From: Bacteroidales bacterium
GTDB lineage: Bacteria > Bacteroidota > Bacteroidia > Bacteroidales > UBA932
DNA length: 64,000 nt
Assembly (NCBI GenBank): GCA_017395045.1
Contig: JAFPWG010000004.1
Location: 62,001 to 126,000 of the forward strand
Reading direction: 5' to 3'
Below the pieces are notes generated by a model that searched no databases, had not been told where the DNA came from, and saw nothing but the letters and a program-made list of their open reading frames with translations. A program made the translations under genes and the position numbers. Positions 11,605 through 17,973 of this stretch are shown in pieces; position 1 is the stretch's first letter; the number at the start of each line of letters is the position of its first letter.

Positions 11605-11661
11605 ATGAGAACAATGATGGTCAATAACTTCTGGTGGCGCACTTGCAGTTCCAAGCTGTAA
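11605..11661 (+). CDS. Trp leader peptide with tandem tryptophan codons
   Basis: 18-codon reading frame MRTMMVNNFWWRTCSSKL. Two consecutive TGG codons at 11632-11637 would stall the ribosome when charged tRNA-Trp is scarce. Internal ATGs at 11614 and 11617 are alternative starts. A near-consensus -7 box (CATCTTTG, 11590-11597) lies only 7 bases before the first ATG, so the mRNA may have almost no leader. The stop codon falls inside RNA segment 2 of the attenuator that follows. The frame itself is read directly; its regulatory role is inferred from position and codon content. Confidence 0.8.
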   Translation: MRTMMVNNFWWRTCSSKL

Positions 11662-11724
11662 GTCGCATCGCCATAGGTAGACCAAGACCATAGGAGGCAC
11701 GCTGACTTACAGCGTGCCTTTTTT
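11641..11724 (+). promoter_or_regulatory. Trp attenuator (alternative hairpins) upstream of trpB2
   Basis: Three mutually exclusive pairings are visible. A pause-type hairpin pairs 11641-11648 with 11656-11663 (8 pairs, one G-U). An antiterminator pairs 11655-11664 with 11704-11713, a perfect 10-base match (GCTGTAAGTC with GACTTACAGC). A terminator pairs 11696-11704 with 11710-11718 (GGCACGCTG with CAGCGTGCC), followed by six T at 11719-11724. A ribosome stalled at the Trp codons leaves the antiterminator strand free, whereas one reaching the stop codon covers it. This is the logic of the enterobacterial trp attenuator. Confidence 0.85.
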
Positions 11725-11761
11725 CATGCCAAAATCATAAACCAAATAAAACACAAACACC

Positions 11762-13126
11762 ATGAAACAGAAAAAGTACATGCTCCCGGAGAGCGAGATC
11801 CCGACCCATTTCTTCAACATCCAGGCGATCATGCCCAACAAGCCGCTGCCGTTCCTGCATCCGGCCACCAAGCAGCCGCTGAAGCCCGAAGACCTGTACC
11901 CCATCTTCTGCAAGGCCTGTGCCGACCAGGAACTCAACCAGACCGATGAATGGATCCCCATCCCGGAGGAAGTACGCCAGCAGTACGCCGCCTACCGCTG
12001 TACCCCGCTCGTGCGTGCCTATGAACTGGAGAAAGCCCTCGGCACCCCGGCCCATATCTTTTTCAAGAACGAGTCCGTGTCTCCGGCAGGCAGCCACAAG
12101 CTGAACTCCGCCATCGCCCAGGCCTACTACGCCAAGGAGCAGGGCATCACGAACCTCACCACCGAGACCGGCGCCGGCCAGTGGGGCGGTGCACTGTCCT
12201 ATGCGACGAAGAAGTTCGGCATCGACTGCGCCGTATATATGGTGAAAGTGAGCTATGAACAGAAACCTTACCGCCGCTCCATCATGCAGACCTTCGGTGC
12301 GGCCATCACCCCGTCCCCGTCCATGTCCACCCGTGCCGGCAAGGACATCATCACCCGGAACCCGAACGACCAGGGTTCCCTGGGCTGCGCCATTTCCGAG
12401 GCTATCGAGCTGGCTGTCAGCACGCCGAACTGCAAGTACGCCCTGGGCTCCGTGCTGAACCACGTGTGCCTGCACCAGAGCATCATCGGCCTGGAAGCCG
12501 AGAAGCAGATGGCCCTCGCCGGAGAATATCCGGACATCGTCATCGCCTGCTTCGGCGGCGGCTCCAACTTCTCCGGCATCGCCTATCCGTTCATGCGCCA
12601 CAACATCCAGGACGGCAAGAAGACCCGCTTCATCGCGGCGGAGCCGTACTCCTGCCCGAAGCTCACCCGCGGCAAGTTCGAATATGACTTCGGCGACGAG
12701 GCCGGCATGACCCCGCTCCTGCCGATGTACACCCTGGGCCATACCTTCAAGCCCGCGTCCATCCACGCCGGCGGCCTCCGCTACCACGGTGCCGGCGTCA
12801 TCCTCTCCCAGCTGATGAAGGACGGTCTGATGGAGGCTGTAGACATCGAGCAAAAGGATTCCTTCGCCGCCGGCGTCCTTTTCGCCCAGACCGAAGGCAT
12901 CATCCCCGCCCCGGAATCCTGCCACGCCATCGCCGCCACCATCCAGGAGGCCCTGAAGTGCAAGGAGACCGGTGAGCAGAAGACCATCCTCTTCAACCTT
13001 TCCGGCCACGGCTTCGTGGACATGAGCGCCTACGACCAGTACTTCTCCGGCGAAATGCAGAACTACCACGTCTCCGAGGAAGACCTGGCAAGGTTCATCA
13101 AGAGCGCAGATGCGCTGAACCTGTAG
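11762..13126 (+). CDS. trpB: Tryptophan synthase beta chain, TrpB2 type
   Basis: 454 residues. PLP enzyme joining indole and serine to make tryptophan. The PLP lysine is in SPAGSHKLNSA; other family segments are TETGAGQWG, the phosphate-binding loop FGGGSNF, and the C-terminal SGHGF. The long form with N-terminal IPTHFFNIQAIMP and the extra insertions identifies the TrpB2 group, which often acts without the alpha subunit and may salvage free indole. No other trp gene is adjacent; the single gene lies under a Trp-codon attenuator, so expression should rise when tRNA-Trp charging falls. Confidence 0.95.
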   Translation: MKQKKYMLPESEIPTHFFNIQAIMPNKPLPFLHPATKQPLKPEDLYPIFCKACADQELNQTDEWIPIPEEVRQQYAAYRCTPLVRAYELEKALGTPAHIFFKNESVSPAGSHKLNSAIAQAYYAKEQGITNLTTETGAGQWGGALSYATKKFGIDCAVYMVKVSYEQKPYRRSIMQTFGAAITPSPSMSTRAGKDIITRNPNDQGSLGCAISEAIELAVSTPNCKYALGSVLNHVCLHQSIIGLEAEKQMALAGEYPDIVIACFGGGSNFSGIAYPFMRHNIQDGKKTRFIAAEPYSCPKLTRGKFEYDFGDEAGMTPLLPMYTLGHTFKPASIHAGGLRYHGAGVILSQLMKDGLMEAVDIEQKDSFAAGVLFAQTEGIIPAPESCHAIAATIQEALKCKETGEQKTILFNLSGHGFVDMSAYDQYFSGEMQNYHVSEEDLARFIKSADALNL

Positions 13127-13147
13127 GGCTTCGGCACGATTTGTGAG

Positions 13148-13184
13148 AAAAACGGCAAAAACCTGATGGTTTCTGCCGTTTTTT
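13148..13184 (+). terminator. Intrinsic terminator after trpB2
   Basis: Long stem: 13148-13157 (AAAAACGGCA) pairs with 13174-13183 (TGCCGTTTTT). It continues through one mismatch into 13159-13163 with 1368-equivalent bases 13168-13172, around a TGAT loop. It ends in a run of T at 13179-13184. It lies 22 bases after the trpB2 stop. Confidence 0.85.
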
Positions 13185-13186
13185 AT

Positions 13187-13194
13187 TATATTTG
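13187..13194 (+). promoter_or_regulatory. Promoter -7 box of frr
   Basis: TATATTTG, perfect TAnnTTTG, immediately after the trpB2 terminator and 28 bases before the frr ATG. A TTG-start frame from 13192 would overlap this box, so the ATG at 13222 is preferred. Confidence 0.75.
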
Positions 13195-13221
13195 CATGAT
13201 TCACTGAAAACACGAAAGACT

Positions 13222-13788
13222 ATGTTACCGAGAGCGAAAGAAATTGTGGATGCTGCGGACCTCAAGATGATGGATGCCGTGGATTTCCTGGAGGAGGACC
13301 TCAAGAACTACCGCGTGGGCAAGGCTTCGCCCGCCATCTTCAACGGAGTGCTGGTGGACTACTACGGCACCGCGACGCCGCTGAACCAGGTTGCGTCCAT
13401 CACCACGCCGGATGCGAAGACCATCGCCATCCAGCCTTGGGAACGTAACATGATCTCCAAGATTGAGAAGGCGATCCTGGACGCCAACGTGGGCCTGACC
13501 CCGTCGAACAACGGCGAGATCATCCGCTGCGTGGTGCCGGCCCTCACCGAGGAGCGCCGCCGGGAACTCATCAAGAAGGCGAAGGCCCAGGGTGAGACCA
13601 CGAAGGTGACGGTGCGCAACGCCCGCCGTGACGGCATCGACCTGCTGAAGAAAGCCCAGAAGAACGAAGGCCTGTCCGAGGACGGCGAGAAGGAGGGCGA
13701 GGACGAGCTCCAGAAGGTCACCGACAAGCACGTGAAGAACATCGACGCGATCATCGCGGCGAAGGAAAAGGAGATTCTCACCGTCTGA
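13222..13788 (+). CDS. frr: Ribosome recycling factor
   Basis: 188 residues from MLPRAKEIVDAADLKMMDA. With EF-G it splits the post-termination ribosome. Seen: the KNYRVGKASPAIFNG segment, conserved PLNQVASIT, and the C-terminal helix with KVTVRNARRDGIDLLKK. Normal length. Its usual neighbour pyrH is not adjacent. No terminator is visible between its stop and the promoter of the pheA operon that begins at 13792. Confidence 0.95.
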   Translation: MLPRAKEIVDAADLKMMDAVDFLEEDLKNYRVGKASPAIFNGVLVDYYGTATPLNQVASITTPDAKTIAIQPWERNMISKIEKAILDANVGLTPSNNGEIIRCVVPALTEERRRELIKKAKAQGETTKVTVRNARRDGIDLLKKAQKNEGLSEDGEKEGEDELQKVTDKHVKNIDAIIAAKEKEILTV

Positions 13789-13791
13789 TGC

Positions 13792-13822
13792 TTGTATTTT
13801 AAATTTATTTATTATACCTTTG
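13792..13822 (+). promoter_or_regulatory. Promoter of the pheA operon
   Basis: TTG at 13792-13794, 20-base spacer, then TACCTTTG at 13815-13822. This fits the Bacteroidetes -33/-7 pattern well. The implied start lies roughly 17 bases before the leader peptide ATG. Confidence 0.75.
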
Positions 13823-13842
13823 TCGAAACGAACTTTCTGACA

Positions 13843-13893
13843 ATGCGATTTTACGGCTTCGGTTATTTCAAGTTCTATTATCAGGCACGATAA
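13843..13893 (+). CDS. Phe/Tyr-rich leader peptide
   Basis: 16-codon frame MRFYGFGYFKFYYQAR. Four Phe and four Tyr codons make up half the peptide, spread over 13849-13881. The stop codon TAA (13891-13893) lies in the second strand of the attenuator. It precedes an operon for phenylalanine and tyrosine synthesis, so it probably senses charged tRNA-Phe and tRNA-Tyr, as pheL senses Phe in enterobacteria. The mix of Phe and Tyr codons fits an operon serving both branches. The role is inferred from codon content and the downstream hairpins. Confidence 0.85.
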   Translation: MRFYGFGYFKFYYQAR

Positions 13894-13965
13894 TAGCCGG
13901 ACGTCGTATCATCATAGCATAGGTTGTATATGTTGGGCTGTCCGGGTATGGGACGGCCCTTTTTT
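13875..13965 (+). promoter_or_regulatory. Phe/Tyr attenuator upstream of pheA
   Basis: Segments 1 and 2 pair perfectly: 13875-13881 CTATTAT with 13890-13896 ATAATAG. Segment 2 can instead pair with segment 3: 13893-13902 ATAGCCGGAC with 13940-13949 GTCCGGGTAT, 9 of 10 bases. Segments 3 and 4 form the terminator: 13935-13943 GGGCTGTCC with 13951-13959 GGACGGCCC, one G-U pair, then six T at 13960-13965. Stalling at the last Tyr codons hides segment 1 and favours the antiterminator; reaching the stop codon hides segment 2 and favours termination. Confidence 0.85.
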
Positions 13966-13984
13966 GACAAAGGTTAGTCAGTAG

Positions 13985-14809
13985 ATGAAGCGGATCGCCA
14001 TACAGGGATACAAGGGTTGTTTCCATGAGCAGGCAGCCCGGGCTTTCTATGCCGACGAGGTCCCCGACATCGTGGAATGCAACACGTTCGAGGACCTGTA
14101 CAGGGCTTTGGAGGCCGGCGTGGCCGATGCCGCCGTGATGGCTATCGAGAACACGCTGTCCGGCGGGCTGCTGCACAATTTCGAACTGCTCCGCCGGTAC
14201 GACCGCAAAGTCAAGGGCGAGGTGTACCTGCGCATCCGGCAGAACCTGATGGCTCTCCCGGGCCAGTCGCTCAGGGACATCCACGAGGTCCGGACGCACT
14301 ACATGGCCATCAACCAGACCCGTGCCTTCTTCGAACGGGAATGCCCCTGGATCCACCTGGTGGAATCGGAGGACACCGCCAAGAGCGCTGCCGACGTGGC
14401 CGAGAAGAAACTCAAGGGCGTGGGGGCGGTCGCCTCGGAACTCGCCGCCGAACTGTTCGGCCTGGAGATCCTCCGCTCCGGAATCGAGACTTACAAACAG
14501 AACTATACGCGTTTCCTGGTGTTCGATGATGAAATGGAAGTACCTGAGGATGAGATAGACAAGGCCTCCATCTGCTTCACCCTGCAGCACAAGCCGGGAT
14601 CGCTTGCGCACATCCTCACCATCCTGTCGTTCTACGACATGAACCTCACCCGTATCCAGTCGCTGCCCATCCCGGGCCGCGAGTGGCAGTATTTCTTCTA
14701 TGCCGACATCAAGTTCGGAAACTATGAACGCTATCAACAGGCCCTGACGGCCATCCGTCCCCTCATCGAGGACCTGGACATCCTGGGCGAATTCAAAGCT
14801 GCGCTATGA
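13985..14809 (+). CDS. pheA: Prephenate dehydratase
   Basis: 274 residues, monofunctional (no chorismate mutase domain). Converts prephenate to phenylpyruvate. The catalytic domain begins IAIQGYKGCFHEQAA and includes the AIENTLSGG segment and the NYTRF (TRF) catalytic motif near residues 175-179. A C-terminal ACT domain for Phe feedback starts near 190, with KPGSLAHIL and RIQSLPIPGREW (the ESRP-type motif). First structural gene of the attenuated aromatic operon. The missing mutase activity is supplied by the last gene of the same operon. Confidence 0.95.
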   Translation: MKRIAIQGYKGCFHEQAARAFYADEVPDIVECNTFEDLYRALEAGVADAAVMAIENTLSGGLLHNFELLRRYDRKVKGEVYLRIRQNLMALPGQSLRDIHEVRTHYMAINQTRAFFERECPWIHLVESEDTAKSAADVAEKKLKGVGAVASELAAELFGLEILRSGIETYKQNYTRFLVFDDEMEVPEDEIDKASICFTLQHKPGSLAHILTILSFYDMNLTRIQSLPIPGREWQYFFYADIKFGNYERYQQALTAIRPLIEDLDILGEFKAAL

Positions 14810-16008
14810 TCATCAAACCTGCCAGAAGGACCGAATCGGTCAAAGAGTATTTCTTCTCCATCAAGAACCGGGAAATCGCGAAACTCAATGCGGAACGGAA
14901 GGACCGCGGCGAGGAACCTGTCATCAATCTGGGCATCGGCTCGCCCGACGGAACCCCGCCCCGGGCGGCCCTGAACGCCGTCGCCAAGACGGCGGTCCTG
15001 GACGGCGTCCATGGCTACCAGAGTTATACGGGCATCCCGGAGTTCCGCCGTGCCCTAGCCGACTGGTACGCCCGCTATTACGGCGTACAGCTGGACCCGG
15101 CCTGCGAAATCCAGCCGCTCACGGGCTCGAAGGAAGGTATCCTCCTGATTTCCATGACGTTCCTGAATGCGGGCGACAAGGTCCTCGTCCCGGACCCGGG
15201 CTATCCGACCTATACGTCGGCCTCGCAGATGGTGGAGGCCCAGGTGATCAAGTACGACCTCGTGGCGGAGAAAGGTTGGACGCCGGACTTCGACGCCCTG
15301 GAGGCGATGGACCTCACGGGGGTGAAGATGATGTGGACCAATTATCCGGGCATGCCCACGGGCGCCCGGGCGACGCGCGCCCTTTACGAGAAGATCGCGG
15401 ACTTCGGCCGCCGTCACGGAATCCTGGTCATCAACGACAACCCCTACAGCTTCATCCGCAACGAGGAGCCGCTCTCCCTGCTGGCCGTGCCCGGTGCCAA
15501 GGAATGCTGCCTGGAGATGAATTCCCTCTCCAAGGCCCACAACATGGCCGGCTGGCGTATCGGCATGGTGGCCGGCGAGGCGGATTACATCAAGGAGATC
15601 CTGAAGGTCAAGTCCCAGATGGACTCCGGCATGTTCAAGCCGCTGCAGTTCGCGGCCATCGAGGCGCTGAAACAGGGTCCGGAGTGGTTTTCGACGCTGA
15701 ATCAGGAGTACCGCCGCCGCGCCGTCGTCGCCGGAAGGATCATGGAGGAGCTGGGTGCGGAATACGATCCGGACAGCGCAGGCCTGTTCGTGTTCGGGAA
15801 GCTGCCGGCCTCCGTGAAGGGAGAGGACGGAAAGACTCCGGGCGAGGTCGTTTCCAACGCCCTGCTGTACGGGGCAGGCGTGTTCATCACCCCGGGCTTC
15901 ATCTTCGGCAAGAACGGAAACGATTATATCCGGATCTCCCTCTGCGCCCCCGTTCCCGTATTGGAGAAGGCGCTGGAAAAAGTAAAAGCCTATCTTGCAA
16001 AGCAGTAG
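14806..16008 (+). CDS. Class I/II PLP aminotransferase of the aromatic operon
   Basis: 400 residues, fold type I aminotransferase. The PLP lysine is in SLSKAHNMAGWRIG, with the usual Arg following. Other family segments are GIGSPDGTPP near the N-terminus, YPTYTSA and INDNPYSF (Asp and Tyr that contact PLP). It overlaps pheA by 4 bases (ATGA). Its place between prephenate dehydratase and prephenate dehydrogenase makes transamination of phenylpyruvate and 4-hydroxyphenylpyruvate the likely role, as in other Bacteroidetes. Substrate specificity cannot be read from sequence. Confidence 0.9.
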   Translation: MIIKPARRTESVKEYFFSIKNREIAKLNAERKDRGEEPVINLGIGSPDGTPPRAALNAVAKTAVLDGVHGYQSYTGIPEFRRALADWYARYYGVQLDPACEIQPLTGSKEGILLISMTFLNAGDKVLVPDPGYPTYTSASQMVEAQVIKYDLVAEKGWTPDFDALEAMDLTGVKMMWTNYPGMPTGARATRALYEKIADFGRRHGILVINDNPYSFIRNEEPLSLLAVPGAKECCLEMNSLSKAHNMAGWRIGMVAGEADYIKEILKVKSQMDSGMFKPLQFAAIEALKQGPEWFSTLNQEYRRRAVVAGRIMEELGAEYDPDSAGLFVFGKLPASVKGEDGKTPGEVVSNALLYGAGVFITPGFIFGKNGNDYIRISLCAPVPVLEKALEKVKAYLAKQ

Positions 16009-16009
16009 C

Positions 16010-16870
16010 ATGGAGCGCACCATCGGAATCATCGGCCTCGGCCTGATCGGCGGGTCCATGGCGGTGGACCTCAAGCGGAGGGGATTCGCAACGAGGGTCA
16101 TCGGCGTGGAAAAGGAATCCATCAACGCTTCCGCCGCGGAAAAGATCGGTCTCGTGGACGAGGTTGTCCCTTATGAGGACTGCATCGCGCAGGCCGACAT
16201 CGTGGTCGTGGCCGTCCCCGTGGGCGCCGCGGTCCGGATCGTCTGCGACGTGCTGGACCGTTACCAGCAGACGGAGGCGAAGGACCGGATCGTCATCGAC
16301 ACCTGCTCCACGAAGGAGCAGATCTGCCAGGCTACGCATTATCACCCGTGCCGCGGGCAGTTCGTATCGACGCATCCGATGGCCGGTACGGAATACAGCG
16401 GCCCCTGGGCGGCGATGCCGAACCTGTTCGACGGCCGCGCCTGCATCTTCGCGAACTCGGAGGAATCGTCCCCGAAGGCCCTCAGGGCCGTGGAGGAGCT
16501 GTATGACGCGCTGAATATGCGTCCCCTTTACATGAACGCGACCCAACACGACGTGCATACCGCCTATGTGTCCCACATCTCGCACGTCACTTCCTTCGCC
16601 CTCGCCCTTACGGTGCTGGACAAGGAGAAGGACGAGAAGCACATCTTCGACCTGGCGTCCGGCGGCTTCTCCTCCACCGTGCGGCTGGCCAAGTCCAGCG
16701 CCGACATGTGGGTGCCCATCCTCACCCAGAACCGCGACAACGTCCTCCACGTGATGGACACCTATATTGAAAAGATGTACGAGTTCCGCCAGGCGGTGGA
16801 CGATTACGACGAAGACAAGATCCGGCAGCTCATCGAAGACGCGAATCGGATCAAGAAGATTATCAGATAA
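16010..16870 (+). CDS. tyrA: Prephenate dehydrogenase
   Basis: 286 residues from MERTIGIIGLGLIGGSMA (ATG at 16010, one base after the previous stop). Oxidatively decarboxylates prephenate to 4-hydroxyphenylpyruvate for tyrosine. Rossmann motif GLGLIGGS, then STHPMAGTEYSG around the active-site His. The HDVHTAYVSHISH segment carries further conserved His. No ACT or mutase domain. Third gene of the operon. Confidence 0.95.
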   Translation: MERTIGIIGLGLIGGSMAVDLKRRGFATRVIGVEKESINASAAEKIGLVDEVVPYEDCIAQADIVVVAVPVGAAVRIVCDVLDRYQQTEAKDRIVIDTCSTKEQICQATHYHPCRGQFVSTHPMAGTEYSGPWAAMPNLFDGRACIFANSEESSPKALRAVEELYDALNMRPLYMNATQHDVHTAYVSHISHVTSFALALTVLDKEKDEKHIFDLASGGFSSTVRLAKSSADMWVPILTQNRDNVLHVMDTYIEKMYEFRQAVDDYDEDKIRQLIEDANRIKKIIR

Positions 16871-16872
16871 TT

Positions 16873-17973
16873 ATGGCAATGACACTGGATATCGTCCCCG
16901 TCGGCGAATGGGGATTCTTCACGCTGCCCCGGCCGATGACGATCGCCGGTCCCTGCAGCGCCGAGAGCGAAGAACAGGTGATGGAAACGGCGAGAGGCCT
17001 CGCCGAGCGGGGCATCCACGTGTTCCGGGCTGGCATCTGGAAACCCCGGACGCACCCGGGCAGCTTCGAAGGCGTGGGCGTGCCCGGCCTCAAATGGCTG
17101 AAACGCGTCAAGGAAGAGACCGGAATGAAGGTCTGTACCGAAGTGGCCAGCGACAGGCACGTGTACGAGTGCCTCAAGTACGGTATCGACATGGTGTGGA
17201 TGGGGGCGCGCACGTCGGCCAATCCCTTCCTGATGCAGCAGATCGCCGACGCGCTTTACGATACGGACATCCCCGTCCTGGTGAAGAATCCGGTCAACCC
17301 GGACCTGGACCTGTGGATCGGGGCGCTGGAGCGGCTGAACCGCGCCGGCGTGCGGAAACTCGGTGTCATCCACCGCGGTTTCTCCACCACGGAAAACATC
17401 CCGTACCGCAATTCCCCGGGCTGGCAGATTGCCATCGAACTGCGGACGCGCTATCCCGACCTTCCTTTCTTCGCCGACCCTTCCCATATGGGCGGCGACC
17501 GGAAATACCTGCTGGAACTGTCCCAGCGGGCGATGGACCTGGGTCTGGACGGCCTGATGGTGGAGTCGCACTGCAACCCGTCGTGCGCGCTCTCCGACGC
17601 GAAGCAGCAGCTTACGCCCGCGGACCTGCTCACCCTTCTTGAAAGTCTCCAGATCCGGGCGAAGGACTCCGGAGACCGGGATTATCGCGAAGGCATCGAC
17701 GCGCTCCGGGCGCAGATCGACCTCATCGACGAGAACCTGCTCAACACCCTGGCTTCCCGGATGGACGTGAGCCGGAAGATCGGCTCGTACAAGCGTGACC
17801 ACAACGTGGCCATCCTGCAGACGAACCGGTGGGAGCAGGTCGTGGAGGGCATCAAGGAAAAAGCCCGCAGATGCGGGCTCTCGGAGAAGTTTGCGGAGGA
17901 CGTGTACAACGCCATCCACGAGGAATCCGTCAGGGTTCAGAACGAAATCCTCTCAGGAGGTCCAGAAGCGTAG
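16873..17973 (+). CDS. Bifunctional DAHP synthase / chorismate mutase
   Basis: 366 residues. The N-terminal about 265 residues are a type I-beta DAHP synthase (KDSA-like) with AGPCSAESE, FRAGIWKPRT, and ADPSHMGGDRKY. The C-terminal about 95 residues are an AroQ chorismate mutase starting near GIDALRAQIDLIDENLL with conserved Arg and Lys (SRKIGSYKR). The fusion joins the first shikimate step to the branch-point step, so one enzyme feeds the prephenate enzymes encoded just upstream. Its last 44 bases overlap the convergent lpxK gene. No terminator is visible. Confidence 0.94.
   Translation: MAMTLDIVPVGEWGFFTLPRPMTIAGPCSAESEEQVMETARGLAERGIHVFRAGIWKPRTHPGSFEGVGVPGLKWLKRVKEETGMKVCTEVASDRHVYECLKYGIDMVWMGARTSANPFLMQQIADALYDTDIPVLVKNPVNPDLDLWIGALERLNRAGVRKLGVIHRGFSTTENIPYRNSPGWQIAIELRTRYPDLPFFADPSHMGGDRKYLLELSQRAMDLGLDGLMVESHCNPSCALSDAKQQLTPADLLTLLESLQIRAKDSGDRDYREGIDALRAQIDLIDENLLNTLASRMDVSRKIGSYKRDHNVAILQTNRWEQVVEGIKEKARRCGLSEKFAEDVYNAIHEESVRVQNEILSGGPEA

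Follow-up and report, generated by a model that had tools for sequence, protein, structure and literature searches.

A probable phenylalanine- and tyrosine-sensing attenuator upstream of pheA in Bacteroidales, with a leader codon mix that goes with the genes downstream

Introduction

What controls the aromatic amino acid operon that begins with pheA in the window, the 64-kb stretch of DNA from a gut-dwelling Bacteroidales bacterium analysed here? Between frr and pheA lies a short reading frame rich in Phe and Tyr codons, followed by a terminator, and it had been proposed from this sequence that a single leader might serve to sense the two end products of the operon (hereafter the original prediction). 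Ribosome-mediated attenuation is a classical mechanism, best studied in Proteobacteria. In the enterobacterial pheL attenuator, a Phe-rich leader peptide precedes pheA and the RNA forms 1:2, 2:3 and 3:4 pairings with a U-run terminator.

Results

The leader frame, MRFYGFGYFKFYYQAR, occupies 13843..13893 on the + strand and has 16 codons (ATG CGA TTT TAC GGC TTC GGT TAT TTC AAG TTC TAT TAT CAG GCA CGA, then TAA), four of them Phe (codons 3, 6, 9 and 11) and four Tyr (codons 4, 8, 12 and 13). We shuffled the 196-base intergenic stretch 20,000 times by dinucleotides, and a frame this rich, with eight Phe/Tyr in 12 codons, arose in 4 of the shuffled sequences. On the same strand, a 1:2 hairpin of eight pairs (13875..13896, -6.3 kcal/mol) holds Tyr codons 12 and 13 in its 5' arm, antiterminator strand 2 (13893..13902) makes nine of ten pairs with strand 3 (13940..13949), and an intrinsic terminator 3:4 (13935..13965) consists of nine pairs and six T (TTTTTT at 13960-13965). 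The segment 13893-13949 as a whole folds at -19.5, and the terminator hairpin (13935-13959) at -17.8 kcal/mol. The leader stop codon (13891-13893) is part of the 3' arm of 1:2 and reaches as far as the base at which antiterminator strand 2 begins. Every part named by the original prediction, namely the 16-codon frame with four Phe and four Tyr, the 1:2 hairpin, the 9-of-10 antiterminator, the G+C-rich terminator with six T and the stop codon in strand 2, was recovered here. The marks of a classical attenuator are found together: a short frame rich in codons of the operon's end products, an intrinsic terminator between this frame and the first gene, an antiterminator 2:3 that is exclusive with the terminator 3:4, and a 1:2 hairpin over the control codons, which holds in the window's group and is weaker in the wider set.

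A candidate -7 box, TACCTTTG (13815..13822, + strand), matches TAnnTTTG, which we take to be the Bacteroidetes -7 consensus, and sits between the end of frr and the leader frame. A candidate -33 element, TTG (13792..13794, + strand), was found by eye 20 bases 5' of it and agrees with the Bacteroidetes -33 consensus.

The frr gene ends at 13788, directly 5' of the leader region, and pheA starts at 13985. Four genes follow on the + strand: pheA, encoding a prephenate dehydratase of 274 aa (13985..14809), an aminotransferase that is probably aromatic from its context (14806..16008), tyrA, encoding a prephenate dehydrogenase (16007..16870), and a DAHP synthase with a C-terminal chorismate mutase (16873..17973). 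NCBIfam matches agree with this operon content as originally predicted; a curated cut-off, that of NF006307, was reached by tyrA alone, and the matches of the other three fell below the curated cut-offs. The window's own assembly contains one PheA match. Among the best 80 of at least 586 relatives, the nearest named PheA relatives are MAGs assigned to Bacteroidales or Bacteroidia, with rumen or gut as the source of many, and three Candidatus Cryptobacteroides records match at 69-73% identity. In many other Bacteroidales, the place of the window's tyrA type within the aromatic operon is taken by a second, different prephenate dehydrogenase-like type of ~257 aa (L165, 3813-4586, and others; NCBIfam matches below cut-off).

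We assembled 354 pheA loci (305 distinct) from the matches listed in genome searches, in which a PheA match was found in 58 of 149 genomes of the family, 185 of 393 of the order and 258 of 296 of the phylum. Four further families were chosen on purpose for pheA genes without the operon (genomes with a match: 16/20, 13/16, 9/11 and 8/8), so the sample is not random. Additional loci came from stretches hand-picked from the match lists and from GTDB contigs (best 80 of at least 586 relatives). All counts cover the matches that were made into loci or fetched, among the matches listed. The conservation count uses the 298 loci with at least 200 nt upstream and excludes seven shorter ones. Three false leaders (L309, L310 and L339, judged from their sequences and peptides) were excluded from the pairing and residue counts; they were counted as leaders in the operon-content script and dropped in one of two tree tests.

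The upstream regions of homologous pheA genes carry a Phe/Tyr-rich frame and then a terminator in 203 of the 298 loci (threshold six Phe/Tyr in 12 codons), as had been anticipated. At this threshold the same 298 loci gave none on the reverse strand and none in shuffles; at the loosest threshold, four, the controls rose above zero, with two on the reverse strand and two shuffled. The element upstream of pheA is not a product of chance. It was present in 125/174 loci from the window's own genome, genus, family and order, 28/29 from other orders of its class, 5/18 from other classes of the phylum and 45/77 on named contigs. When all 190 residue pairs were scored in every third locus (72/215), Phe plus Tyr came out on top. 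Leader sequences vary widely from locus to locus and the density of Phe/Tyr is maintained, as expected from selection on codons and not on the peptide.

Homologues without the frame, which had been named in advance as evidence against the attenuator, do exist: among 44 loci with at least 65% identity to the window's PheA, 23 have the element and 21 lack it, set against its presence in 203 of 298 pheA loci overall. In ten of the 21, frr ends at most a few tens of bases from pheA and the region is absent. Nine of these (L055, L060, L062, L064, L065, L073, L079, L084 and L097) keep the same downstream gene order; in the tenth, L086, no tyrA was found downstream. One near relative, L078, lacks a leader and still has a terminator of this sequence type, and the remaining ten have other neighbours or none detected. 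The element is therefore not indispensable, given the 21 near relatives without it and the nine among them whose downstream gene order is unchanged. L078 and L339 have no Phe/Tyr frame before pheA and do have a terminator there, which may be what is left of an attenuator.

Five loci from other classes of the phylum (L245, L253, L317, L318 and L319) have the leader, and their PheA matches (E 5e-98 or lower) score near those of the window's class; here the operon may have moved together with its attenuator. L256 has a PheA similar to the L245 group, yet no leader.

Across loci, strand 2 follows strand 3. We paired the stretch after the last Phe/Tyr codon with strand 3 in 211 loci, and the duplex averaged -15.8 kcal/mol, compared with -8.9 when that stretch was shuffled and -10.3 with the strand 3 of other loci. 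The observed energy was reached by 400 of 10,550 shuffles, and 202 of the 211 loci lay at -10 or lower. A run of at least seven unbroken pairs was present in 177/211 loci when each was matched with its own strand 3; when an unlike strand 3 was swapped in, 19% of 4220 swaps gave such a run. Strand 2 begins a median of 9 nt past the last Phe/Tyr codon. A first, narrower test that began at the stop codon gave a weak, two-peaked result (-8.5 vs -5.8 shuffled), better than a locus's own shuffles in 132/210 loci. In many loci the frame extends through strand 2, and for this reason the start of the region was moved back to the last Phe/Tyr codon; this wider region was chosen with the weak result of the narrower test already known. 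Of the 206 loci whose duplex reached -8 or better, 84 have a stop codon that overlaps strand 2, 97 have it downstream of that strand and 25 upstream, so a ribosome finishing translation would in general cover strand 2 or have crossed it.

Within the window's group of 23 related sequences (L146, whose 65% we took as a partial match, was excluded from the alignment), two-sided changes were seen in 18 cells of 3:4 and 14 cells of 1:2, counts reached by 0 of 500 shuffles each. In 1:2, 93.5% of cells are paired. For both stems, 3:4 and 1:2, the number of pairs and the number of pair types were less distinctive, with 27-72 of 500 shuffles as high. No 2:3 covariation was seen within this group, where the strands are nearly invariant. 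In the wider set of 210 loci, 1:2 support is modest: -11.95 vs -9.33 with codons shuffled, 3004 of 12,600 shuffles being as good. The stem covariation for which the original prediction had proposed a test is thus present for 2:3, in step across loci, and for 1:2 and 3:4 in the window's group.

We folded the leader around a ribosome placed at successive positions (footprint assumed to extend 10 nt beyond the A-site codon). A ribosome at the stop codon let the terminator form, and one at codon 8, 9, 12 or 13 the antiterminator. Stalling at codons 3, 4 and 6 gave the 1:2 hairpin plus terminator, and at codon 11 the terminator. Since only stalls there give the antiterminator in this model, Phe9 and Tyr8, 12 and 13 are the likely control codons.

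Does the leader respond to Tyr as well as Phe? We scored the Tyr share, the fraction of Tyr among the Phe/Tyr codons of the leader core, against a Tyr-branch gene downstream, either an aminotransferase or a tyrA of one of two types. The cut of one quarter was set after an earlier smaller count had been seen (6 vs 112 loci, Mann-Whitney p 5e-5, uncorrected for descent). We classified 217 of 235 leaders, 18 being left out because the downstream DNA or the protein was too short. Where a Tyr-branch gene follows, at least a quarter of the codons are Tyr in 186 of 190 leaders (exceptions L103, L180, L266 and L348). Of 27 loci classified as lacking such a gene, 21 fall below a quarter; the six high-Tyr ones are the three false leaders and the real exceptions L119, L164 and L222. 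With the false leaders removed, 21 of 24 are low in Tyr and 3 of 24 have at least a quarter, where 9 of the 24 come from one family and many were classed with only ~1.5 kb after pheA covered. The 21 low-Tyr leaders have no Tyr in the core (11) or a single one (10). L164 and L222 may be misclassified, given that their nearest rows, L191 and L197, have a Tyr-branch gene further downstream.

Individual loci show the two types. L176 (leader MTRFFTHFFFFFTQQ), L335 (leader MKDYRTFFFFGFFF..., upstream of pheA-DAHP synthase) and L230 (leader MITINNSFFFFFFRSDPEKGL, 5' of a pheA that ilvD and ilvB follow) are of the low-Tyr type. Within one family, L305/L306 combine the operon with a Tyr-rich leader, whereas L301/L302 have pheA alone with a Phe-rich leader; within one genus, L351-L353 contrast with L337/L338 in both leader and operon content. 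In a quick FastTree PheA tree, which does not separate gain from loss, operon content differs within eight independent pairs that lie on supported branches; on average the leader changes in the same direction in 5.5 of them, in the opposite direction in 0 and not at all in 2.5. The descent-corrected sign test gave a median p of 0.0625 (range 0.031-0.0625); with the false leaders kept, the counts were 4.9, 0 and 3.1 and p ranged from 0.031 to 0.125. The leader codon mix goes with the presence of tyrosine-branch genes downstream, which is new here, and corrected for descent this link is borderline.

These data bear on whether a working attenuator might sense phenylalanine only, its Tyr codons serving as spacers or in RNA pairing. 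Phe does outnumber Tyr (980 vs 699 among the core residues of 201 distinct leaders), and leaders with Phe only exist. We nevertheless regard this as unlikely, since the Tyr share reaches a quarter in 186/190 leaders with a Tyr-branch gene vs 3/24 without, no independent pair goes the opposite way (with the sign test borderline), and in the window's leader Tyr8, 12 and 13 lie where a stalled ribosome is effective. The proposal that the leader senses both end products thus gains support, leaders being Tyr-poor where no Tyr-branch gene follows. Trp sensing was also considered; Trp makes up 25 of 2401 core residues, not above an assumed background of 1.2%.

The terminator might merely end frr transcription, the frame being an accident of A+T-rich DNA. 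The position of frr directly upstream agrees with this, and terminator-like sites are no commoner here than in shuffles (2 found vs 2.0 expected in 13000-15000, generic scan), so the terminator alone is no proof; conservation supplies it. The frame-terminator pair precedes pheA in 203/298 loci, and among the 116 leader loci with 1000 nt upstream frr is near in only 21 and not near in 95, so it is pheA, not frr, that the element accompanies. The promoter box between frr and the frame recurs as well: TAnnTTTG occurs at most 110 nt 5' of the leader start in 157/204 loci, vs 20 after base shuffling, at a median of 21 nt before it. Together with strand 2 tracking strand 3, these observations leave this explanation highly unlikely. 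It is also very improbable that the leader controls pheA translation or reinitiation instead of termination: the frame is short and near pheA, yet 91 nt and a strong terminator separate its stop codon from pheA, and the conserved part is a terminator with a competing antiterminator. A T-box or metabolite riboswitch in place of a translated leader, a common means of controlling amino-acid genes in other phyla, is scarcely credible, because the conserved feature is the codon make-up of a frame and the region has no Rfam match at the gathering score (the whole window gave only a tRNA), with nothing relevant at E up to 10 in 13780-13990, where the sub-threshold matches (E 1.1 to 9.6) are unrelated.

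Discussion

The window's element is of a known kind, classical ribosome-mediated attenuation, and it very probably works as a transcription attenuator that senses charged tRNA-Phe and tRNA-Tyr. This reading is built on the parts present in the sequence, their conservation, the co-variation and the link between codons and operon. From these we infer a transcript start ~15 nt 5' of the leader frame. With Phe and Tyr plentiful, a ribosome translating the frame would reach the stop codon and cover strand 2; strand 3 would then pair with strand 4 and RNA polymerase would halt at the six U. With Phe or Tyr short, the ribosome would stall in or just before strand 1 (Tyr8, Phe9, Tyr12 and Tyr13) and mask it, leaving strand 2 to pair with strand 3, and read-through would carry transcription into pheA-aminotransferase-tyrA-DAHP synthase/chorismate mutase. 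The leader thus probably lets ribosomes sense scarcity of Phe or Tyr and switch the genes on or off.

The likeness to pheL, which likewise has a Phe-rich leader before pheA, competing pairings and a terminator with a U run, is one of mechanism only. Unlike pheL, which senses Phe and controls pheA alone, the window's leader adds four Tyr codons and its operon also holds tyrA, the aminotransferase and the DAHP synthase-chorismate mutase. As in the enterobacterial thr and ilv leaders, one leader has codons for several end products; here the amino acids are others, and the codon mix differs between lineages along with gene content. Attenuators in Bacteroidetes/Chlorobi are reportedly named in the abstract of Vitreschak et al. 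2004 (FEMS Microbiol Lett).

Whether the arrangement had already been described was left open by the original prediction, and the answer is in part yes. The accessible part of PMC9723704 reports a structured element upstream of pheA in Flavobacterium psychrophilum, present in other Flavobacteriaceae genera, and clues for leader-peptide attenuation before amino-acid operons of that species. That element shares phylum and gene with the window's, and the same part of the text gives no leader sequence, antiterminator or link to operon content. A literature search with most subscription journals outside it found no paper on a Phe/Tyr leader before pheA in Bacteroidales. In the portions available of other reports, Bacteroid-trp RNA (RF01692) is listed as a probable cis-regulatory RNA of Bacteroidetes (PMC2864571), uORFs containing Phe and Tyr stand before shikimate metabolism genes in five genomes examined (PMC6429828), long 5' UTRs of Bacteroides thetaiotaomicron have short frames reminiscent of leader peptides (PMC7366714), and PMC4833913 cites Lopatovskaya et al. 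2010 on attenuation. RF01692 resembles the window's element as a Bacteroidetes cis-regulatory RNA, as far as its entry goes; its name links it to trp, and an Rfam search found no match to it in the window or in the genome to which the window belongs. The uORFs resemble the window's leader in having Phe and Tyr and adjoining aromatic pathway genes; in the text available, the two genomes named are not Bacteroidetes.

We lean towards the view that the aromatic-operon attenuator of Bacteroidia has been re-tuned by evolution, its Phe/Tyr codon mix following the operon's end products and Tyr codons becoming few or gone, in several separate lineages, where tyrosine-branch genes are absent. Our findings suggest that, in a dominant gut phylum, the synthesis of aromatic amino acids is commonly regulated by a textbook mechanism, and the Phe-only and Phe/Tyr leaders offer a natural experiment on what is sensed by leaders with codons for several amino acids. 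For classical attenuation a ribosome must follow RNA polymerase closely, and Bacteroidia start translation mostly without Shine-Dalgarno pairing. Such elements are a handle for testing transcription-translation coupling in Bacteroidia; if the re-tuning reading is true, coupling would be tight on the leaders of bacteria whose translation starts are mostly of this non-Shine-Dalgarno kind.

Other probable leaders came to light. Between pheA and ilvD, L230 and L214 have a short frame rich in Ile (by eye, MRHMLTSIIFIILTCHGKK in L230) with a terminator-like hairpin behind it (~850-1080 after the pheA start); ilvD and ilvB follow by NCBIfam in L230, and the frame is probably a branched-chain leader. 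In the window itself, a second probable classical attenuator (element 11605-11725) lies upstream of a TrpB-like gene (11762-13126): the frame MRTMMVNNFWWRTCSSKL (11605-11661, + strand) has tandem Trp codons, and by eye its stop codon falls inside GCTGTAAGTC (11655-11664), whose perfect complement, GACTTACAGC (11704-11713), is part of the terminator hairpin downstream.
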